Positions 12,761 to 22,291 of a DNA stretch of 33,823 nucleotides are shown piece by piece (positions within the stretch are counted from its first letter, which is position 1; each line of letters opens with the position of its first letter). A program made the translations under genes and the position numbers. Origin of the DNA: Parcubacteria group bacterium (lineage in GTDB: Bacteria > Patescibacteriota > Patescibacteriia > UBA9934 > GWF2-40-263); assembly GCA_013204395.1 (NCBI GenBank), contig JABMNZ010000019.1, positions 1 through 33,823 of the forward strand, given 5' to 3'. The notes beneath the pieces are model-generated. The model ran no database searches. It saw only the letters and a program-made list of their open reading frames with translations, and was not told the DNA's origin.

Positions 12761-14182
12761 TTAGGCCCGTCGCTGGAGTGGCACGACCTTTCTGGGGCAG
12801 GGCCAGGGGGCGAGCTCCAGGAACTGTTCTGGGGTGAGCGGCTCACCCATCTTACCGATGTGATCGGCGATGGCCCGCAGGAGTGCCTCTCCGTGCCTGA
12901 CGGATGCTTCATGGCGGTGGAATGAGGTTGTGGCGTGCTCGTACGGTTTCCAGGCTTCCACCAGCTCGTTGAGCGTGGGGCATAGCCGAATGATGTTCTC
13001 CGTGTCAAACGGGGTGGGAGCCCAGTGCTTGAGCCGCGCGAGCCACTGCTTGCGATCGCCTAGACGGATCATGGTGGCCTGAGCCCGCTGGTGGAACTTG
13101 GAAGAATCCTCGTCCCTCTTGGGGCGGAACATGATTTCGAGTGCAGACCATTGCTCAAAGGTGGTGGCACTGGTGCACAGACTTGAGTAGATCTTCTCTC
13201 GCTCATCGTTGAAACTCGTGTAGAGCAGTCCGCTCACGCGCTTCCACTCCTCGTGGCTCACAGCTCTGGACATCAACTGGTGAACCACCATGCGCTGAAA
13301 CTCGACGTCTGCCTTGGTGAAGGAAGTGTTTTTGCTGAGAGTCATCCACTCCTCGAAGGACAGCTTTCGCCCGAGGATTTCTTGAACGATGTCCTCACGC
13401 GGATAGGCGTCTGGACAATCCTTCAACCAGCACCACATCAGCTCAAGGTCCCTCAGAGACCGTTCGCTCAGCTCCACGTGTCCCCAGGCCCGGCGTCGGC
13501 CTTCCTCACTGGGAAGATCCCTCATGAGTTGAACTTGTGTCTCCGTGTAATCCGGGAACTCCTGCACCAGCCGGCGCAGACCCAGTGCCTTGATCCTGGA
13601 CACCTTCGAGCGGGTCACCATGGACAGCTCATCGTGTCTCACTGGCACCAGTCGCATGTGCCAGATAGCCATCTCGCGATGACACTTCACGGTCGAACGC
13701 TCCCAAACCCAGTACCAGTTGCCGAACGTCTCAGCAGTGGAAAGGAGCTTTGCCCACACCCTCGTGATGATGGGATCATCACTCTCGAGATTCCGAAGTA
13801 CGTGTACCCAGAAATCGAAGGGGGCTTGGGACCCAAGAAGCTGTTTTTGGACATAGGCCTTGCAGTCACTCGCTTTGGGGGAGTGGTTGTAGAAGGACCA
13901 CCACAGCAGTTGGGGCTCGACTTCTTCTGTTCGCCCCCAATTGGTGTGGATGAACGGACGGGGGTCCATGAGCCGCGCAAGCATGAGCTGATCGAGTCGC
14001 GACCCAGCTACGCAGTACGGGAGCAGCTTCTGGATAGGAGTGATCTGATTCACACCAAGTAGGGCATCGTCCGGCATGAGAGCCTGGAGTGCCACAAATC
14101 GGATCCAACCATCCAACATCTGTCCTTCCAGGCCACGGACCAAAGCCGACGCGTCAAAGACCTCTATTGCTTCCGCAGTCAT
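12761..14182 (-). CDS. Uncharacterised 473-aa protein with alpha-helical, Trp-containing repeats
   Basis: Long ORF bracketed by strong hairpin terminators. Recurrent '(F/H/R)xxW' units: LSFEEWMTLSKNT.., VSHEEWKRVSGLL.., TTFEQWSALEIMF.., DRKQWLARLKHW... Confidence 0.7.
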   Translation of the reverse strand: MTAEAIEVFDASALVRGLEGQMLDGWIRFVALQALMPDDALLGVNQITPIQKLLPYCVAGSRLDQLMLARLMDPRPFIHTNWGRTEEVEPQLLWWSFYNHSPKASDCKAYVQKQLLGSQAPFDFWVHVLRNLESDDPIITRVWAKLLSTAETFGNWYWVWERSTVKCHREMAIWHMRLVPVRHDELSMVTRSKVSRIKALGLRRLVQEFPDYTETQVQLMRDLPSEEGRRRAWGHVELSERSLRDLELMWCWLKDCPDAYPREDIVQEILGRKLSFEEWMTLSKNTSFTKADVEFQRMVVHQLMSRAVSHEEWKRVSGLLYTSFNDEREKIYSSLCTSATTFEQWSALEIMFRPKRDEDSSKFHQRAQATMIRLGDRKQWLARLKHWAPTPFDTENIIRLCPTLNELVEAWKPYEHATTSFHRHEASVRHGEALLRAIADHIGKMGEPLTPEQFLELAPWPCPRKVVPLQRRA

Positions 14183-15665: not shown

Positions 15666-15902
15666 TTAATTTGCTTCCTCATCTTGCATGGCTTGGTAAT
15701 CTGCCCAGCGTCCACGCAGATGGGTTTCTAAATCCTCAGTTGGATCATCTGTGTGCATCTCGCCCACTTTGCGATGTTCCTCGATAACTTCCTCTACCAA
15801 AAAATCGTAAGCGGATTGATCGGTTACACCCTGCTCTCTGCCACGAGCAACAACCTCGCGAAACATATCTTCAGGGGTATAAGAAAGGTTAATGTTTGTC
15901 AT
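15666..15902 (-). CDS. Conserved-looking small hypothetical protein (78 aa)
   Basis: Tightly packed between the MBL nuclease and VKOR genes and overlapping the VKOR 3' end; acidic, low-Cys sequence. Confidence 0.65.
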   Translation of the reverse strand: MTNINLSYTPEDMFREVVARGREQGVTDQSAYDFLVEEVIEEHRKVGEMHTDDPTEDLETHLRGRWADYQAMQDEEAN

Positions 15903-16323
15903 ACGTTCTCAGTTTTAATACAAATCCAGTTATTACAACTATAATCGCTTGGCTCCCAAGACACAGTAGACACCAGGCATGTAGAACAAATGCTTCGATG
16001 CTTGAGAGATAAAAACTAAAAGCCAAGGCACCAAGAGTCGCAATCGTAATAAAAGTGGTAAGACTTTTATCCGATGGAGAGCAAAGTTTCAACAAGGCGG
16101 CTAGTGCAATAAACCCATACCCCAAAATACCCAACGCTGAAACAGGTATTCCAAGAATTACCGAGTAGACACTTTTATTCACTATCCCACAATCAAATGT
16201 TGCGTTGATAGTACAGAATTCAGCCGTGGTTGCCCCATACTTATAGGCAAGAGTGTAAGCAGAAAGTGCTGCACCAAGCAAACCTAGGAAGATGATTGAC
16301 TTGAGAACCCTGTCACGACTCAT
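15889..16323 (-). CDS. Vitamin K epoxide reductase (VKOR) family protein
   Basis: Multi-TM; loop cysteines 'FCTINATFDCGIVNKSVYSVILGIPVSALGILGY' and active-site 'CLLC'. Confidence 0.9.
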   Translation of the reverse strand: MSRDRVLKSIIFLGLLGAALSAYTLAYKYGATTAEFCTINATFDCGIVNKSVYSVILGIPVSALGILGYGFIALAALLKLCSPSDKSLTTFITIATLGALAFSFYLSSIEAFVLHAWCLLCLGSQAIIVVITGFVLKLRTYDKH

Positions 16324-16721
16324 ACTCCTTCCTGTGGCAGTTCACATCCAGTCTTGGCCGAGATGGCTTCCAAGGTCATGAAACCTCCTGAGCGTGAACT
16401 ATCTGAGAACTCCCATGTTGGATATCCCTCAATGCCTAGATCACGACACTCTTGTGTCATTGTCTTGGATGCGTTGGAACACTCAATGTAATCAATCAGG
16501 TCAAACGCGCTTCCGAATGCTTCCTTTTGATCATTGCAGTGTGGGCACCACCAAGCGCCATACATTAACGTTCCAGTGTCAGTCACACACTGTGCAAATT
16601 CGTCATAAATTGACGGTCCGCTCGTTGAGGCACTGTTGTTTGCCGCAAAAATGATGAGACCCACAGCAACAATCGCTGCGGCTCCGTATAAATAATAAGA
16701 AGATTGTTTAGACTTTGCCAT
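16320..16721 (-). CDS. Membrane-anchored thioredoxin-fold protein (likely VKOR partner)
   Basis: N-terminal TM helix then 'LMYGAWWCPHCNDQKEAFG' and 'GYPTWEF' (cis-Pro loop); 4-nt overlap with VKOR. Confidence 0.88.
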   Translation of the reverse strand: MAKSKQSSYYLYGAAAIVAVGLIIFAANNSASTSGPSIYDEFAQCVTDTGTLMYGAWWCPHCNDQKEAFGSAFDLIDYIECSNASKTMTQECRDLGIEGYPTWEFSDSSRSGGFMTLEAISAKTGCELPQEGV

Positions 16722-17932: not shown

Positions 17933-18820
17933 ATGACTATTGGAATCCTCATTTACTCTGGTCCAGCACAAGAAACGTACACGGCAGCTGACAGACTTAC
18001 GGCAGCAGCAGAAAAATTAGGCCACCAGGTGATAAAGCTTTATGAGCCACTTCTTTCAATTTCCGAGACAGAGATCCTTCATGAGGGACTACCTCTGCCC
18101 CACCTGGATGTGATCATTGCTCGACCAAATTTTGTGGCAGAACCAAGCTTGCACCAGTACGTAACAGACAAACTCTTGGGTGTATGCCCGGTGATTAATG
18201 GCGCTGGAAATATCAGTGCTTCAAAAAACAAAATCGCTCAACACCTCCTTTTTGAAAAACATCAGCTCCCCTGTCCCAGATGGGGCATCGCTCGGAACTC
18301 AAAGGATCTCTGTAAGCTCGCAGAAGAGTTTGGTTACCCCGTCATTCTAAAAGTCGCCTTCGGCACCCATGGAAAGGGTGTCTTCTATGCGGACAAACGT
18401 GAAGTTCTCGATCCGATTGCAGGATACATAAGCATACGAGATGGCAACCCCCTTATCATTGAAGAATTTATTGCCGAAGCAAACAGAACAGATCTTAGAA
18501 TTTTTCTCATCGGGGGAGAAGTCATCGCAGCCATGGAGCGCAAGGCACCTGAGGGCGATGTGCGTGCAAATACATCAACGGGAGGCACCGGACATAAAGT
18601 TGTGCTCACGGATGAAGAGATCAACCTGGCAAAACGTGTCACAGAGCTCTTTCAACTAGATATCTCTGGAGTAGACCTTATCCGATCAAAACGCGGACCA
18701 CTGATTATAGAAATCAATGCGAATCCTGGATTTACAGAACTCGAGCGCATAACCGGCGTAGATGTTGCTGGTGCGATCATCGAGTATGCGACCAAGCAGA
18801 CACCGGGGTCGCAAAAGTAA
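17933..18820 (+). CDS. RimK-like ATP-grasp ligase
   Basis: 'GNISASKNKIAQHLLFEKHQLPCPRW', 'PVILKVAFGTHGKGVFYADKRE', 'LIIEEFIAEANRTDLRIFLIGGEVIAAMERKA', 'IIEINANPGFTELERITGVDVAGAIIEY'. ATG at 17933. Confidence 0.88.
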   Translation: MTIGILIYSGPAQETYTAADRLTAAAEKLGHQVIKLYEPLLSISETEILHEGLPLPHLDVIIARPNFVAEPSLHQYVTDKLLGVCPVINGAGNISASKNKIAQHLLFEKHQLPCPRWGIARNSKDLCKLAEEFGYPVILKVAFGTHGKGVFYADKREVLDPIAGYISIRDGNPLIIEEFIAEANRTDLRIFLIGGEVIAAMERKAPEGDVRANTSTGGTGHKVVLTDEEINLAKRVTELFQLDISGVDLIRSKRGPLIIEINANPGFTELERITGVDVAGAIIEYATKQTPGSQK

Positions 18821-18894
18821 TAAATTTTTGCGTCACTTGTTGAACAATATTTCAAAACCATTCCCTGCAAGGCAGTATCCTGCCTGCCAAATAT

Positions 18895-18921
18895 CTCCGA
18901 GCATTGTCTCGGAGGTTTTTT
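18895..18921 (+). terminator. Intrinsic terminator
   Basis: CTCCGAG-CATTGT-CTCGGAG followed by GTTTTTT. Confidence 0.8.
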
Positions 18922-18976
18922 GTTTATCTGGGGGAGGAAGGCGTGGTTAAGACTTTTTTGGTAAACTGTAGGTAAT

Positions 18977-19666
18977 ATGAAAAAAGAATTGCGAAACTCA
19001 GAACTTGCAAAGCTTCACGAGTGGCTTAGTTCTAATGTCGATGGTTACGTAGCGCTCTGCGAGGCAGGCTCTACAACGGCAGGAGATCCATGGGTAGAAG
19101 GACGGAGCGACCGTGATGTCACGATTGTATTCTCTGAGATAAATAAGGAGTTAAGGTCAACCGTACAGGCACAGCTTGGCCGAGTCGGTTTCGATGACAC
19201 GTACTTGTTTATCATGTTTCCACAAGACTACTTTCTGGAGACACAAAGCGAGCAGGATCTGTCGATGAAGTTTCGCGGGGAAACGCTGTACGGAGAAGAT
19301 CTGGTGAAGCTCAAGGAATTACCAACACGAGAATTTGCCCAGGACGTTGCTCATAGAGGACTCTCAACAATGTCCAGGAAGTTCAGTACACGATTGCTAA
19401 ACAGTGACCATTGGTCTATTGAGCACCTACGAGACATGCTCTACCCAGAGTTCAAGCGACTTATCATGTACTTGGCGGCAGCTCATTATGCACAAACGGG
19501 TGAGTATCCTCGGCGTCGATTGGATGTTGCAGAAGCCTACAATTCTGAAGAGCTTCGAATTATTGCAGATACAATTGCTACAATTGAGAGCGCAACAAGA
19601 GAAATATTGATAGTCACAACGAAGCATGCCATTGGTTTTTTATCTGATTTCTCTGTTAACACATAA
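18977..19666 (+). CDS. Nucleotidyltransferase-superfamily protein with helical C-terminus
   Basis: Pol-beta-like signature 'GSTTAGDPWVEGRSDRDVTIVF' (GS...SDRD), then a helical region. Confidence 0.65.
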   Translation: MKKELRNSELAKLHEWLSSNVDGYVALCEAGSTTAGDPWVEGRSDRDVTIVFSEINKELRSTVQAQLGRVGFDDTYLFIMFPQDYFLETQSEQDLSMKFRGETLYGEDLVKLKELPTREFAQDVAHRGLSTMSRKFSTRLLNSDHWSIEHLRDMLYPEFKRLIMYLAAAHYAQTGEYPRRRLDVAEAYNSEELRIIADTIATIESATREILIVTTKHAIGFLSDFSVNT

Positions 19667-19705
19667 GAATGACTATCCTGTCACTATTTGTTAGGATCTA
19701 TTTAC

Positions 19706-20512
19706 ATGAATGAGTTTTCAGATAAACAAATAAAGAAATTTCAAAAAGAAGGTTTTTTAGATCTTGGGCAGTTGTTTTCTGTTGAGGAAACAATAAGGGT
19801 TCGAACTGTTTTCGATTCTTTAGTATCAACCAATCCCAAGGGAGTCAAAGTGATTTACGAAACAGGATCTCGAGAAGAGGAGGAGAAAGTCGTCCGCAGT
19901 ATTATGGGGTGGCAGAGAGTGGTTGGTGTGTTGGAATCATTTGCAAAAGATAAACGAGTCCTTGATATTGTAGAGATTGTTCTTGGTTCAGAAGTCGAGT
20001 TTCACCAAACAAAGTACAACCCAAAAGCTCCAAGTGGAAAGAGTAAGAAATGGGATCCTCATAGAGGAGATACGTTCTGGTGTTTGAAAGATGGGATTTC
20101 TGATCCCGAAGGGATCCTTACAGTATTCGTTGCTCTTACAGATCAAACAGAAGATAATGGAGCTGTTATCGTATGGAAAGGTTCACAGTCAATATCACTT
20201 GAAAAAATCAAGAAGAATATTCTGGGGCTCGATAGTGGGGTGGATGTATCTCAGGATACAGCGGAGTACTTATCTCTTCAGTTAGATGAAGAGATTCAAG
20301 AAGAAATAAATGCGCGTTTTGAGAAAGTTGTTCTTGAAGGGGTGGCTGGAACAGTTTGGTTGATTCACTCGGGTCTTCTTCATTCCTCTAGACCCAATAT
20401 GTCTTCTGAACAAAGAGATTTGGTTGCGAACGTTTTTCGAAGAACGGATAATCGTCCGTCGCGTCCTAGGGCAGAGGAGTATTTAAGCGAGCCAGAAAAC
20501 GGACCACTTTAA
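19706..20512 (+). CDS. PhyH-family Fe(II)/2-oxoglutarate-dependent enzyme with atypical HxG motif
   Basis: 'WDPHRGDTFWCL' (H119-R120-G121-D122), 'VALTDQTEDNGAVIVWKGSQ', distal 'LLHSSRPNMSSEQRDLVANVF' (H226, R237). ATG at 19706 preferred over the TTG at 19688. Confidence 0.75.
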   Translation: MNEFSDKQIKKFQKEGFLDLGQLFSVEETIRVRTVFDSLVSTNPKGVKVIYETGSREEEEKVVRSIMGWQRVVGVLESFAKDKRVLDIVEIVLGSEVEFHQTKYNPKAPSGKSKKWDPHRGDTFWCLKDGISDPEGILTVFVALTDQTEDNGAVIVWKGSQSISLEKIKKNILGLDSGVDVSQDTAEYLSLQLDEEIQEEINARFEKVVLEGVAGTVWLIHSGLLHSSRPNMSSEQRDLVANVFRRTDNRPSRPRAEEYLSEPENGPL

Positions 20513-20532
20513 AAGAAAGGGTTAGAACCTGA

Positions 20533-20589
20533 CTAGCTAGCCCCCCGCCAGCACAGGTAAGTTTGACTCGTGCAGGCAAATCTAGTTAG
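20533..20589 (+). ncRNA. Candidate structured leader RNA upstream of the cupin gene
   Basis: Nested helices: CTAGCTAG (20533-20540)/CTAGTTAG (20582-20589) and GCCaGCAC (20547-20554)/GTGCaGGC (20570-20577), apical loop AGGTAAGTTTGACTC. Confidence 0.4.
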
Positions 20590-20627
20590 ATCACTCCATC
20601 GACATCAAGGGATCGTCGAGAGAGGAC

Positions 20628-21023
20628 ATGAACATGCTTACCAGTGTAGCCGGTGTGAAAGCCGCATTCCCCCACCTTACCTGGCGGGACCAACCCTCAC
20701 CTGAAGGCGGGAACATCTCCCTCGCCATCTGCGGAGGAGATCGAAAAACCGGTGACATCACCATGCTCTATGCAATGGATGATGGAGCCGTGTCACCACT
20801 ACATACTCATCACGAGCGCGTGGGATGGCCCTACGTGGAGAGCACCACGTGCCTGACAGGGAGAATGCTCGGGCTCGACCCGGACGACCCAACCTTCGTA
20901 CTGACAGCTGGCAATACGGTCGACCTGAACGACGACACACCACATCAACCGTACGTCGAAGCTGGTGGATTCGCTCTCGTCATCTTCCGCCAACCGGCCG
21001 GAAGCAAGGTGCTGGGACATTAG
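20628..21023 (+). CDS. Cupin-domain protein
   Basis: 'SPLHTHHERVGWPYVESTTCLTGRM...LTAGNTVDLNDDTPHQPYVEAGGFALVIFRQPAG' matches a cupin layout. Confidence 0.65.
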   Translation: MNMLTSVAGVKAAFPHLTWRDQPSPEGGNISLAICGGDRKTGDITMLYAMDDGAVSPLHTHHERVGWPYVESTTCLTGRMLGLDPDDPTFVLTAGNTVDLNDDTPHQPYVEAGGFALVIFRQPAGSKVLGH

Positions 21024-21105
21024 CCACCAGATCGGTTGAAGGATCCAAGATCGTCGGGCACAAAAACAGAGAAGGCAATACATCTGCAAAACTAACAGAT
21101 AGCGC

Positions 21106-21127
21106 ACCACCCCACGGGTGGTTTTTT
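21106..21127 (+). terminator. Intrinsic terminator
   Basis: ACCACCC-CAC-GGGTGGT followed by TTTTTC. Confidence 0.8.
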
Positions 21128-21195
21128 CTTTTCATATTGTATGGAGCGCCAACCAGCTTACCCACCATGCATCCACGATGTCATAATACTTTTGT

Positions 21196-22179
21196 ATGAA
21201 ACAAAGCTATCTCAACGGCATTATTGTCGTTCTTATCCTCATAGCCGCTGGACTCGGTTGGACCCTCTTGTCTTTAAACAAGCCAGCTCAAATCACAGAA
21301 CCCTCAACCACAGAAGTTACCGATCCAATCGTCGCTGACACTGAATCTGATACATCCACTGCAACAGACAAACGAAAACCCCCAAGATTTATCCCTGGCA
21401 CAACAACTCAAACCGAACCCGTCTCGGCAGATACAGAAACCATCCTTGATCTGACGCCAGGCTACTTGATCACGGTCCACATCGAGCCGGAGCAAAACCC
21501 AACAGTTGAACGGCAAAATTGGGGAACACTTAACACGCTCGTTAATCTGGCGAATGAGTACGACATGAAGCTCTCTTTACACTTCTCTGCATCGATGGCC
21601 TCACTCGTTTCTCAAAACATGGAATTCATCGACACTGTATGGAAGTGGGAACGAGACGGCCATGAGATTGGTGTCCATCATCATGATCCAAGCCACGCCG
21701 CCTGGGACGGCTACACAGATGATGCATCGCTCATAGGGTCACGGGGGTATCTCGGCACCATCAATGAGATGATGGACCTCGTCTCAGCATTGAGTGTAGA
21801 CAAGACTATTCTCACAGGATCTGGCACAAGTAACCCAGATGAATGGCCCGAGTGGGTCATCTATGGCTCACGTGGGGGTTCTCCTCCAAGCTATAAACAA
21901 ATGGTCATGCCGGCTGAAACGGATGTGATGGGTAACACAACAGTCACCTTCCTTCCCAAAGCTCCGTTCAATGTCAGTATGATCAGCGCCGCCAATAGTG
22001 CAACCTATGATCGAATCGAAGACGCGCTGAACGATGTTGACCCAGATGAATATCTAGGACTAACTATCACGGACAAAACTTTAGATGATCAAGGTCTCGC
22101 AGACCTCGAGCGTGTCTTTCAACTGTATGTCGACAACAACATTCAAACACAAACAATAGAAGTTCTCTTAAATCGATAG
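21196..22179 (+). CDS. Membrane-anchored polysaccharide-deacetylase-like protein
   Basis: N-terminal TM anchor and Thr/Pro-rich linker, then 'LITVHIEPEQN...LSLHFSASM...WERDGHEIGVHHHDPSHAAWDGY'. Confidence 0.6.
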   Translation: MKQSYLNGIIVVLILIAAGLGWTLLSLNKPAQITEPSTTEVTDPIVADTESDTSTATDKRKPPRFIPGTTTQTEPVSADTETILDLTPGYLITVHIEPEQNPTVERQNWGTLNTLVNLANEYDMKLSLHFSASMASLVSQNMEFIDTVWKWERDGHEIGVHHHDPSHAAWDGYTDDASLIGSRGYLGTINEMMDLVSALSVDKTILTGSGTSNPDEWPEWVIYGSRGGSPPSYKQMVMPAETDVMGNTTVTFLPKAPFNVSMISAANSATYDRIEDALNDVDPDEYLGLTITDKTLDDQGLADLERVFQLYVDNNIQTQTIEVLLNR

Positions 22180-22187
22180 TCAAAAAC

Positions 22188-22216
22188 AAAACCCGCCAGC
22201 AATGCTGACGGGTTTT
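22188..22216. terminator. Shared hairpin terminator (plus-strand deacetylase-like gene and minus-strand tRNA-Gln)
   Basis: AAAACCCG-C-CAGC-AAT-GCTG-A-CGGGTTTT, 2 nt beyond the tRNA CCA end. Confidence 0.75.
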
Positions 22217-22217
22217 G

Positions 22218-22291
22218 TGGTTCCCGAGCAGGGACTCGAACCCCAATTTCTTGGACCAGAACCAAGCGTCCTGCCATTAGACGACTCGGGA
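22218..22291 (-). tRNA. tRNA-Gln (anticodon CTG)
   Basis: TCCCGAG TC GTCTAATGGCAGGAC G CTTGG-TTCTGGT-CCAAG AAAT TGGGGTTCGAGTCCCTG CTCGGGA A CCA. Full cloverleaf, encoded CCA, T1:A72 pair. Confidence 0.95.

Follow-up and report, generated by a model that had tools for sequence, protein, structure and literature searches.

Background

The described systems closest to the protein reported here are the ectoine hydroxylase EctD (3emr, 4mhr), the L-leucine 5-hydroxylase GriE (5nch, 5nci) and H11, a trans-3/4-proline hydroxylase (7dzz, 7e01). EctD holds its iron through H146, D148 and H248 and its 2OG through F143, S250 and R259 (PMC2871039), and contacts its substrate through Q127, W150 and R280 (PMC6890836); in GriE, R242 is the Arg for the substrate carboxylate (PMC5676206). 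In published Fe/2OG halogenases, Gly or Ala replaces the Asp or Glu at the ligand site (PMC13244439, PMC12346261). Human AspH, on the other hand, hydroxylates with a 2-His site and does not halogenate (PMC13168262), the D414G form of P4H is dead (PMC2767507), and in a BesD homologue the change from Asp to Gly alone gave no efficient conversion (PMC13244439). An HxG motif alone is insufficient as proof of halogenation.

An HxG protein and its metal site

The window, i.e. the whole stretch of DNA that was analysed (33,823 nucleotides), is an entire contig of a 1.1 Mb genome, whose size and gene content point to a Patescibacteria-like bacterium. At 19706-20512 on its plus strand, an uninterrupted ORF encodes a 268-aa PhyH-fold Fe(II)/2OG enzyme (P0001) with HxG in place of HxD, an assignment drawn from Pfam, alignments and a structural model. 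The original prediction had put this protein in the PhyH family, with a metal-site His119 followed by Gly121 where Asp would stand, and with the distal H226 and R237 present; all of this is borne out. The PF05721 profile search, now run, gives 60.3 bits against a gathering cut-off of 22. Residues 116-125 read WDPHRGDTFW, and the HxD...H triad of the family is incomplete: H119 and H226 are there, and the Asp has become G121. In pairwise alignments G121 falls, without gaps, under the HxD Asp of EctD, GriE and H11, as it does under a profile of 80 sequences. Scanned by alignment, 85,462 species genomes gave 80 nearest relatives (identity to P0001 at most 32% for each), all with Asp at this column, and no HxG homologue from the clade of P0001 itself; Asp is also found in 12 of 12 plasmid homologues. 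The Gly121 codon (20066-20068) is GGA, two base changes away from the Asp codons GAT and GAC, so a single sequencing error is excluded as its source.

The EctD residues can be mapped across the whole site (all codons on the plus strand). H146, D148 and H248 correspond to H119 (20060-20062; the proximal iron ligand, H110 in GriE), G121 and H226 (20381-20383; the distal iron ligand), while F143, S250 and R259 correspond to W116, S228 (20387-20389; hydroxyl of the 2OG site) and R237 (20414-20416; salt bridge to the 2OG C5-carboxylate). H226, S228 and R237 are family-invariant, the latter two being present in 80/80 relatives. EctD Q127 and W150 correspond to Q101 and W125 (20078-20080; the position of EctD W150/W152, which contacts substrate in EctD). 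Q101 belongs to a retained substrate-side strand of hydroxylase type, Q101-T-K103-Y-N105 (20006-20020), and the GriE/H11-like substrate-side residues kept by P0001 are Q101, K103, N105, W125 and N249. EctD R280 and GriE R242 probably correspond to R255 (20468-20470), shifted by one residue, which would be the candidate Arg for a substrate carboxylate. Because Q101, W125 and the probable R255 match substrate contacts of EctD and GriE, a small carboxylate-bearing free substrate would be likelier than a carrier-bound one.

Conservation around the metal loop

We call a column near-invariant if at least 95% of the P0001 relatives share one residue. P0001 keeps 19 of the 29 such columns, including every iron/2OG residue bar the carboxylate, and has lost 10, against 0-2 in held-out relatives and 7 in a single one. 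Conservation around residues 96-104 (a strand) and 144-152 is partly built into these counts, as the patterns used to retrieve the relatives covered both parts, and since P0001 branches outside its relatives some of the differences may be traits of its clade. Losses near the metal are W118P, Q120R and D121G, with Y/F122D adjoining. Judged from the alignment, the metal loop is remodelled and the remainder of the active site kept.

A pattern of this kind might also mark a pseudoenzyme, i.e. a protein that has lost catalysis and is kept for ligand binding or regulation, or else an acquired gene in decay. The ORF is intact and its codon usage host-like, and at only about 28% identity P0001 still has the two His, S228, R237 and the residues on the substrate side; retention of the 2OG site would be surprising in a dead enzyme. 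Although the iron carboxylate is gone, 10 of 29 near-invariant columns differ, the branch is very long (2.5 changes per column) and P0001 is known from one genome only, we consider this explanation fairly unlikely.

Placement and fold

Scored against group profiles, P0001 obtains 154 bits with the hydroxylase relatives, 47 with chlorinase-type proteins and 52 with a third group. The best trees put it just outside the hydroxylase relatives, on the hydroxylase side of the chlorinase split (99/92; 99/96), and the AU test does not reject a union of P0001 with the chlorinases (p 0.37 and 0.13). In a PDB search by sequence, the nearest solved structures are EctD, GriE and H11, with SyrB2 far off at 24 bits. 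An AlphaFold model built from 57 sequences (pLDDT 90, pTM 0.90, compared with pLDDT 33 from the P0001 sequence alone) consists for the most part of beta-strands, with a helix that begins at residue 121; its best Foldseek matches are H11, GriE and EctD, at TM about 0.75-0.83 and 23-27% identity.

Kinship of this kind bears on a second alternative, in which P0001 would be an AspH-like 2-His hydroxylase or oxidase: a water held by second-sphere residues would fill the carboxylate site, and the substrate would be hydroxylated, desaturated or epimerised with no part played by halide. AspH is a precedent (PMC13168262), the nearest kin with solved structures are hydroxylases, the 154 bits against 47 agree with this, and the Arg conserved in chlorinases is missing from P0001 (see below). 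AspH, however, needs its own second-sphere residues for the water, P4H loses hydroxylation in the D414G form (PMC2767507), and the D-T-F that follows Gly121 is a match to chlorinases and not to hydroxylases. We hold such an enzyme to be unlikely.

Comparison with chlorinases

A comparison set was obtained by searching the TIGR01762 profile in genomes reached through the loci under study. L128-L131, L133 and L134 score over the chlorinating-enzyme cut-off, and L128-L131 carry the motif DWHQADTF or DWHQADNF, which aligns with DPHRGDTF of P0001, its HRG ungapped against the chlorinase HQA. The alignment of HRGDTF with a SyrB2-type HQADTF, on which the original prediction leaned, is thus confirmed by four proteins above the cut-off. 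The accompanying suggestion of membership in the SyrB2/TIGR01762 family fares otherwise. P0001 scores 38.6 bits where the cut-off is 226.3, and the hydroxylase profile outscores that of the chlorinases; going by its sequence, P0001 should not be filed as a SyrB2-family member.

Asp122-Thr123-Phe124 (20069-20077, plus strand) resembles the chlorinase HQ-A-D-(T/N)-F, position 122 being Tyr or Phe in hydroxylases. Over 30 columns that discriminate chlorinases from hydroxylases, P0001 is chlorinase-like at 12 and hydroxylase-like at 8, while hydroxylase relatives are chlorinase-like at no more than 5. An Arg six residues beyond the 2OG Arg is present in 10/10 chlorinase-type proteins; we take this, from SyrB2 numbering and from the spacing, to be the position of SyrB2 R254, and P0001 has Val243 there. 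Cys126 occupies the SyrB2 N123 position. Thr145 (20138-20140, plus strand) is Thr in 8/10 chlorinase-type proteins and Asp in 78/80 hydroxylase relatives. Both A143 and T145 occur also in L138, an HxD protein, so they are not diagnostic and may be ancestral, and we dropped them as halogenase markers.

The comparison set holds further variants of the metal site. L133 and L134 read HQVET(Y/F), with Val, not Ala or Gly, at the carboxylate position, and weaker hits related to them have HxA (L135, L136) or HxE (L137). L140 (1114-1974, in the cyanobacterial genome G585) is PhyH-like with Gly at the carboxylate position (VDWHQGYGTW) and adjoins an isochorismatase-like gene; its near relatives L138 and L139 are HxD, and it is possibly an independent case of HxG.

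The remaining alternative, raised by the original prediction itself, is that D122, which adjoins G121, serves as the carboxylate ligand (HxxD) of an ordinary hydroxylase; this is very improbable, given that there is no indel, that the H119-to-W125 spacing is that of all relatives, that the chlorinating enzymes L128-L131 also have the +3 Asp (HQADTF/HQADNF), and that SyrB2, whose ligand position is Ala, binds chloride instead (PMC2767507). Because the +3 Asp occurs in recognised chlorinases that lack the carboxylate, D122 would be a chlorinase feature and not a stand-in ligand. The original prediction had also weighed the chance that homologues carry HxD. They do, in 80/80 relatives, and Gly121 is therefore a private change within a hydroxylase-type lineage.

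A candidate freestanding halogenase

In our estimate there is an even chance that P0001 is a freestanding Fe(II)/2OG radical halogenase of a small carboxylate substrate, of hydroxylase-side origin independent of SyrB2. The points in favour are G121 against Asp in 80/80 relatives, the line-up of HRGDTF with HQADTF/HQADNF, the 12/30 chlorinase-like columns, a remodelled metal loop in a site that otherwise retains its iron/2OG residues, the confident model with its matches to H11, GriE and EctD, and the Gly or Ala of published halogenases. Against it stand Val243 in place of the +6 Arg, Cys126 at the position of SyrB2 N123, the non-diagnostic nature of A143 and T145, the lack of a recognised biosynthetic cluster and of an HxG homologue from its clade, and the absence of COX1 from the genome. 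Confidence is limited by the three precedents given at the outset: AspH has the same gap yet hydroxylates, P4H D414G is dead, and Asp-to-Gly was insufficient in the BesD homologue.

The proposed chassis is a free-amino-acid hydroxylase of the GriE/H11/EctD kind. Fe(II) would be bound by H119 and H226 and 2OG held by S228 and R237, and the loss of the Asp at G121 would free a coordination site; up to this step the scheme rests on the sequence and the model. For what follows, we infer halide binding, substrate class and reaction outcome: chloride or bromide would fill the free site, decarboxylation of 2OG by O2 would produce a cis-halo-oxo-Fe(IV) species, this would take a hydrogen from a small carboxylate-bearing substrate held on the Q101/K103/N105/W125/R255 side, and the halogen would rebound onto the substrate.

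A more specific version is offered tentatively, as something we rather doubt: that P0001 halogenates a free amino acid or a carboxylate like it, is independent of SyrB2 and convergent on the H-x-(A/G)-D-T-F loop, and would be both the first aliphatic halogenase of Patescibacteria and the first enzyme with HxG on the EctD/GriE/H11 side of PhyH. A literature search among open-licence papers gave no relevant report of a halogenase in Patescibacteria or CPR, and we noticed none there on the GriE/EctD branch. P0001 is a credible but unproven candidate for a freestanding halogenase. Should it halogenate, a well-understood amino-acid hydroxylase scaffold would have made the switch from hydroxylase to halogenase independently, offering a way to find the changes needed beyond Asp-to-Gly, and a reduced-genome bacterium would be capable of C-H halogenation. 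Should it not, nature would have provided a PhyH enzyme that functions, or is retained, with its iron carboxylate missing. A single 268-aa protein is enough to reach either outcome.

Gene island and probable acquisition

The PhyH gene lies in a species-specific island of three genes, all on the plus strand. About 40 bp upstream is an orphan gene (18977-19666) for a 229-aa protein that contains GSTTAGDPWVEGRSDRDV, which recalls, by eye, the GS...DxD core of nucleotidyltransferases, and 115 bp downstream is an orphan cupin-like gene for 131 aa (20628-21023). Terminator-like hairpins stand ahead of the island (18893-18916) and beyond it (21106-21122), likewise on the plus strand. The cupin-like gene, at 58% GC amid 45-48%, is the compositional outlier of the island. 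Neither neighbour has an above-cut-off family in Pfam or NCBIfam, or a PDB or plasmid match. PADLOC gave no match, and no biosynthetic cluster was recognised beside the PhyH gene.

The original prediction took the gene to be acquired and cited its T-rich codon usage; a recent acquisition is supported, on other grounds, and the codon argument is not. Searches of 39-59 neighbouring genomes gave no relative for any of the three island genes, and a sample of 380 other genomes of the phylum gave no PhyH-gene homologue (this sample shares G012 and G037 with the neighbouring-genome set, making about 439 other phylum genomes altogether). Single-sequence searches of genome contigs, viral contigs and phages returned no close relatives of P0001. 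PhyH proteins over the cut-off are present in 6/381 phylum genomes, including that of P0001; of the rest, those inspected seem to belong to different subfamilies. The rimK-like gene at the island's flank is conserved. Two relatives (L046, L047) have tRNA-Gln and dnaX after rimK, and the genus-mate L045 carries other cargo in the gap. The segment from the rimK-like gene to tRNA-Gln/dnaX (18820-22290 in the window) is a spot of variable insertion and speaks for acquisition of the PhyH gene. Third-position T in the gene is 35.4%, within the range of its neighbours, and in codon choice it ranks with the genes that fit the host best, so that atypical codon usage was rejected as a sign of transfer; a low GC3 (32.8%) is the sole codon measure to stand out.

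The idea that the island is an integron cassette was not supported: no IntI exceeds the TIGR02249 cut-off (the best single stretch has 118 bits, against 265), and a candidate attC palindrome lacks unusual stability. Two full-length tyrosine recombinases that were examined look XerC/D-like.

Elsewhere in the window, a 473-aa ORF between lepA and an MBL-fold gene (12761-14182) is un-host-like in composition (GC 58%, GC3 71.5%). Adjacent VKOR-like and DsbA-like genes (15889-16721) suggest oxidative protein folding in a genome from which COX1 is absent.

Comparison with known systems

Human AspH is like P0001 in its triad gap and two His ligands. It differs in that it hydroxylates EGF-like domains, does not halogenate and has no sequence match to P0001. 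Freestanding amino-acid halogenases of the BesD type share with P0001 the HxG motif and, presumably, a free small substrate and a hydroxylase ancestry; no sequence similarity to BesD is detectable in the PDB search, and the comparison of mechanism draws on the literature.

With SyrB2/CytC3-type enzymes (TIGR01762), P0001 has in common the 2-His iron site, the H-x-(A/G)-D-(T/N)-F loop and the Ala143 and Thr145 positions. Unlike them, it is without the +6 Arg, the Asn and the chlorinase insertion after the motif, it retains hydroxylase substrate residues, and no carrier-protein partner is seen. EctD is the top PDB sequence match (71 bits, aligned over its full length), and its iron/2OG residues are those of P0001 save the Asp. 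The EctD signature FxWHSDFETWHxEDG is absent from P0001, which reads WDPHRGDTFWCLKDG, the ectoine hydroxylase model TIGR02408 gives 65.2 bits against a cut-off of 336.5, and there are no ectoine genes near the P0001 gene.

H11 and GriE are about 25% identical to P0001 and have HxD where it has HxG; P0001 also has Asp for Tyr/Phe122, Pro for Trp118, and its substrate Arg one residue off. Their fold is nevertheless common with that of P0001 (TM about 0.77-0.83), as are the HQxKxN strand, W125, the two His, and the Ser and Arg of the 2OG site, and the substrates of both enzymes are small amino acids.
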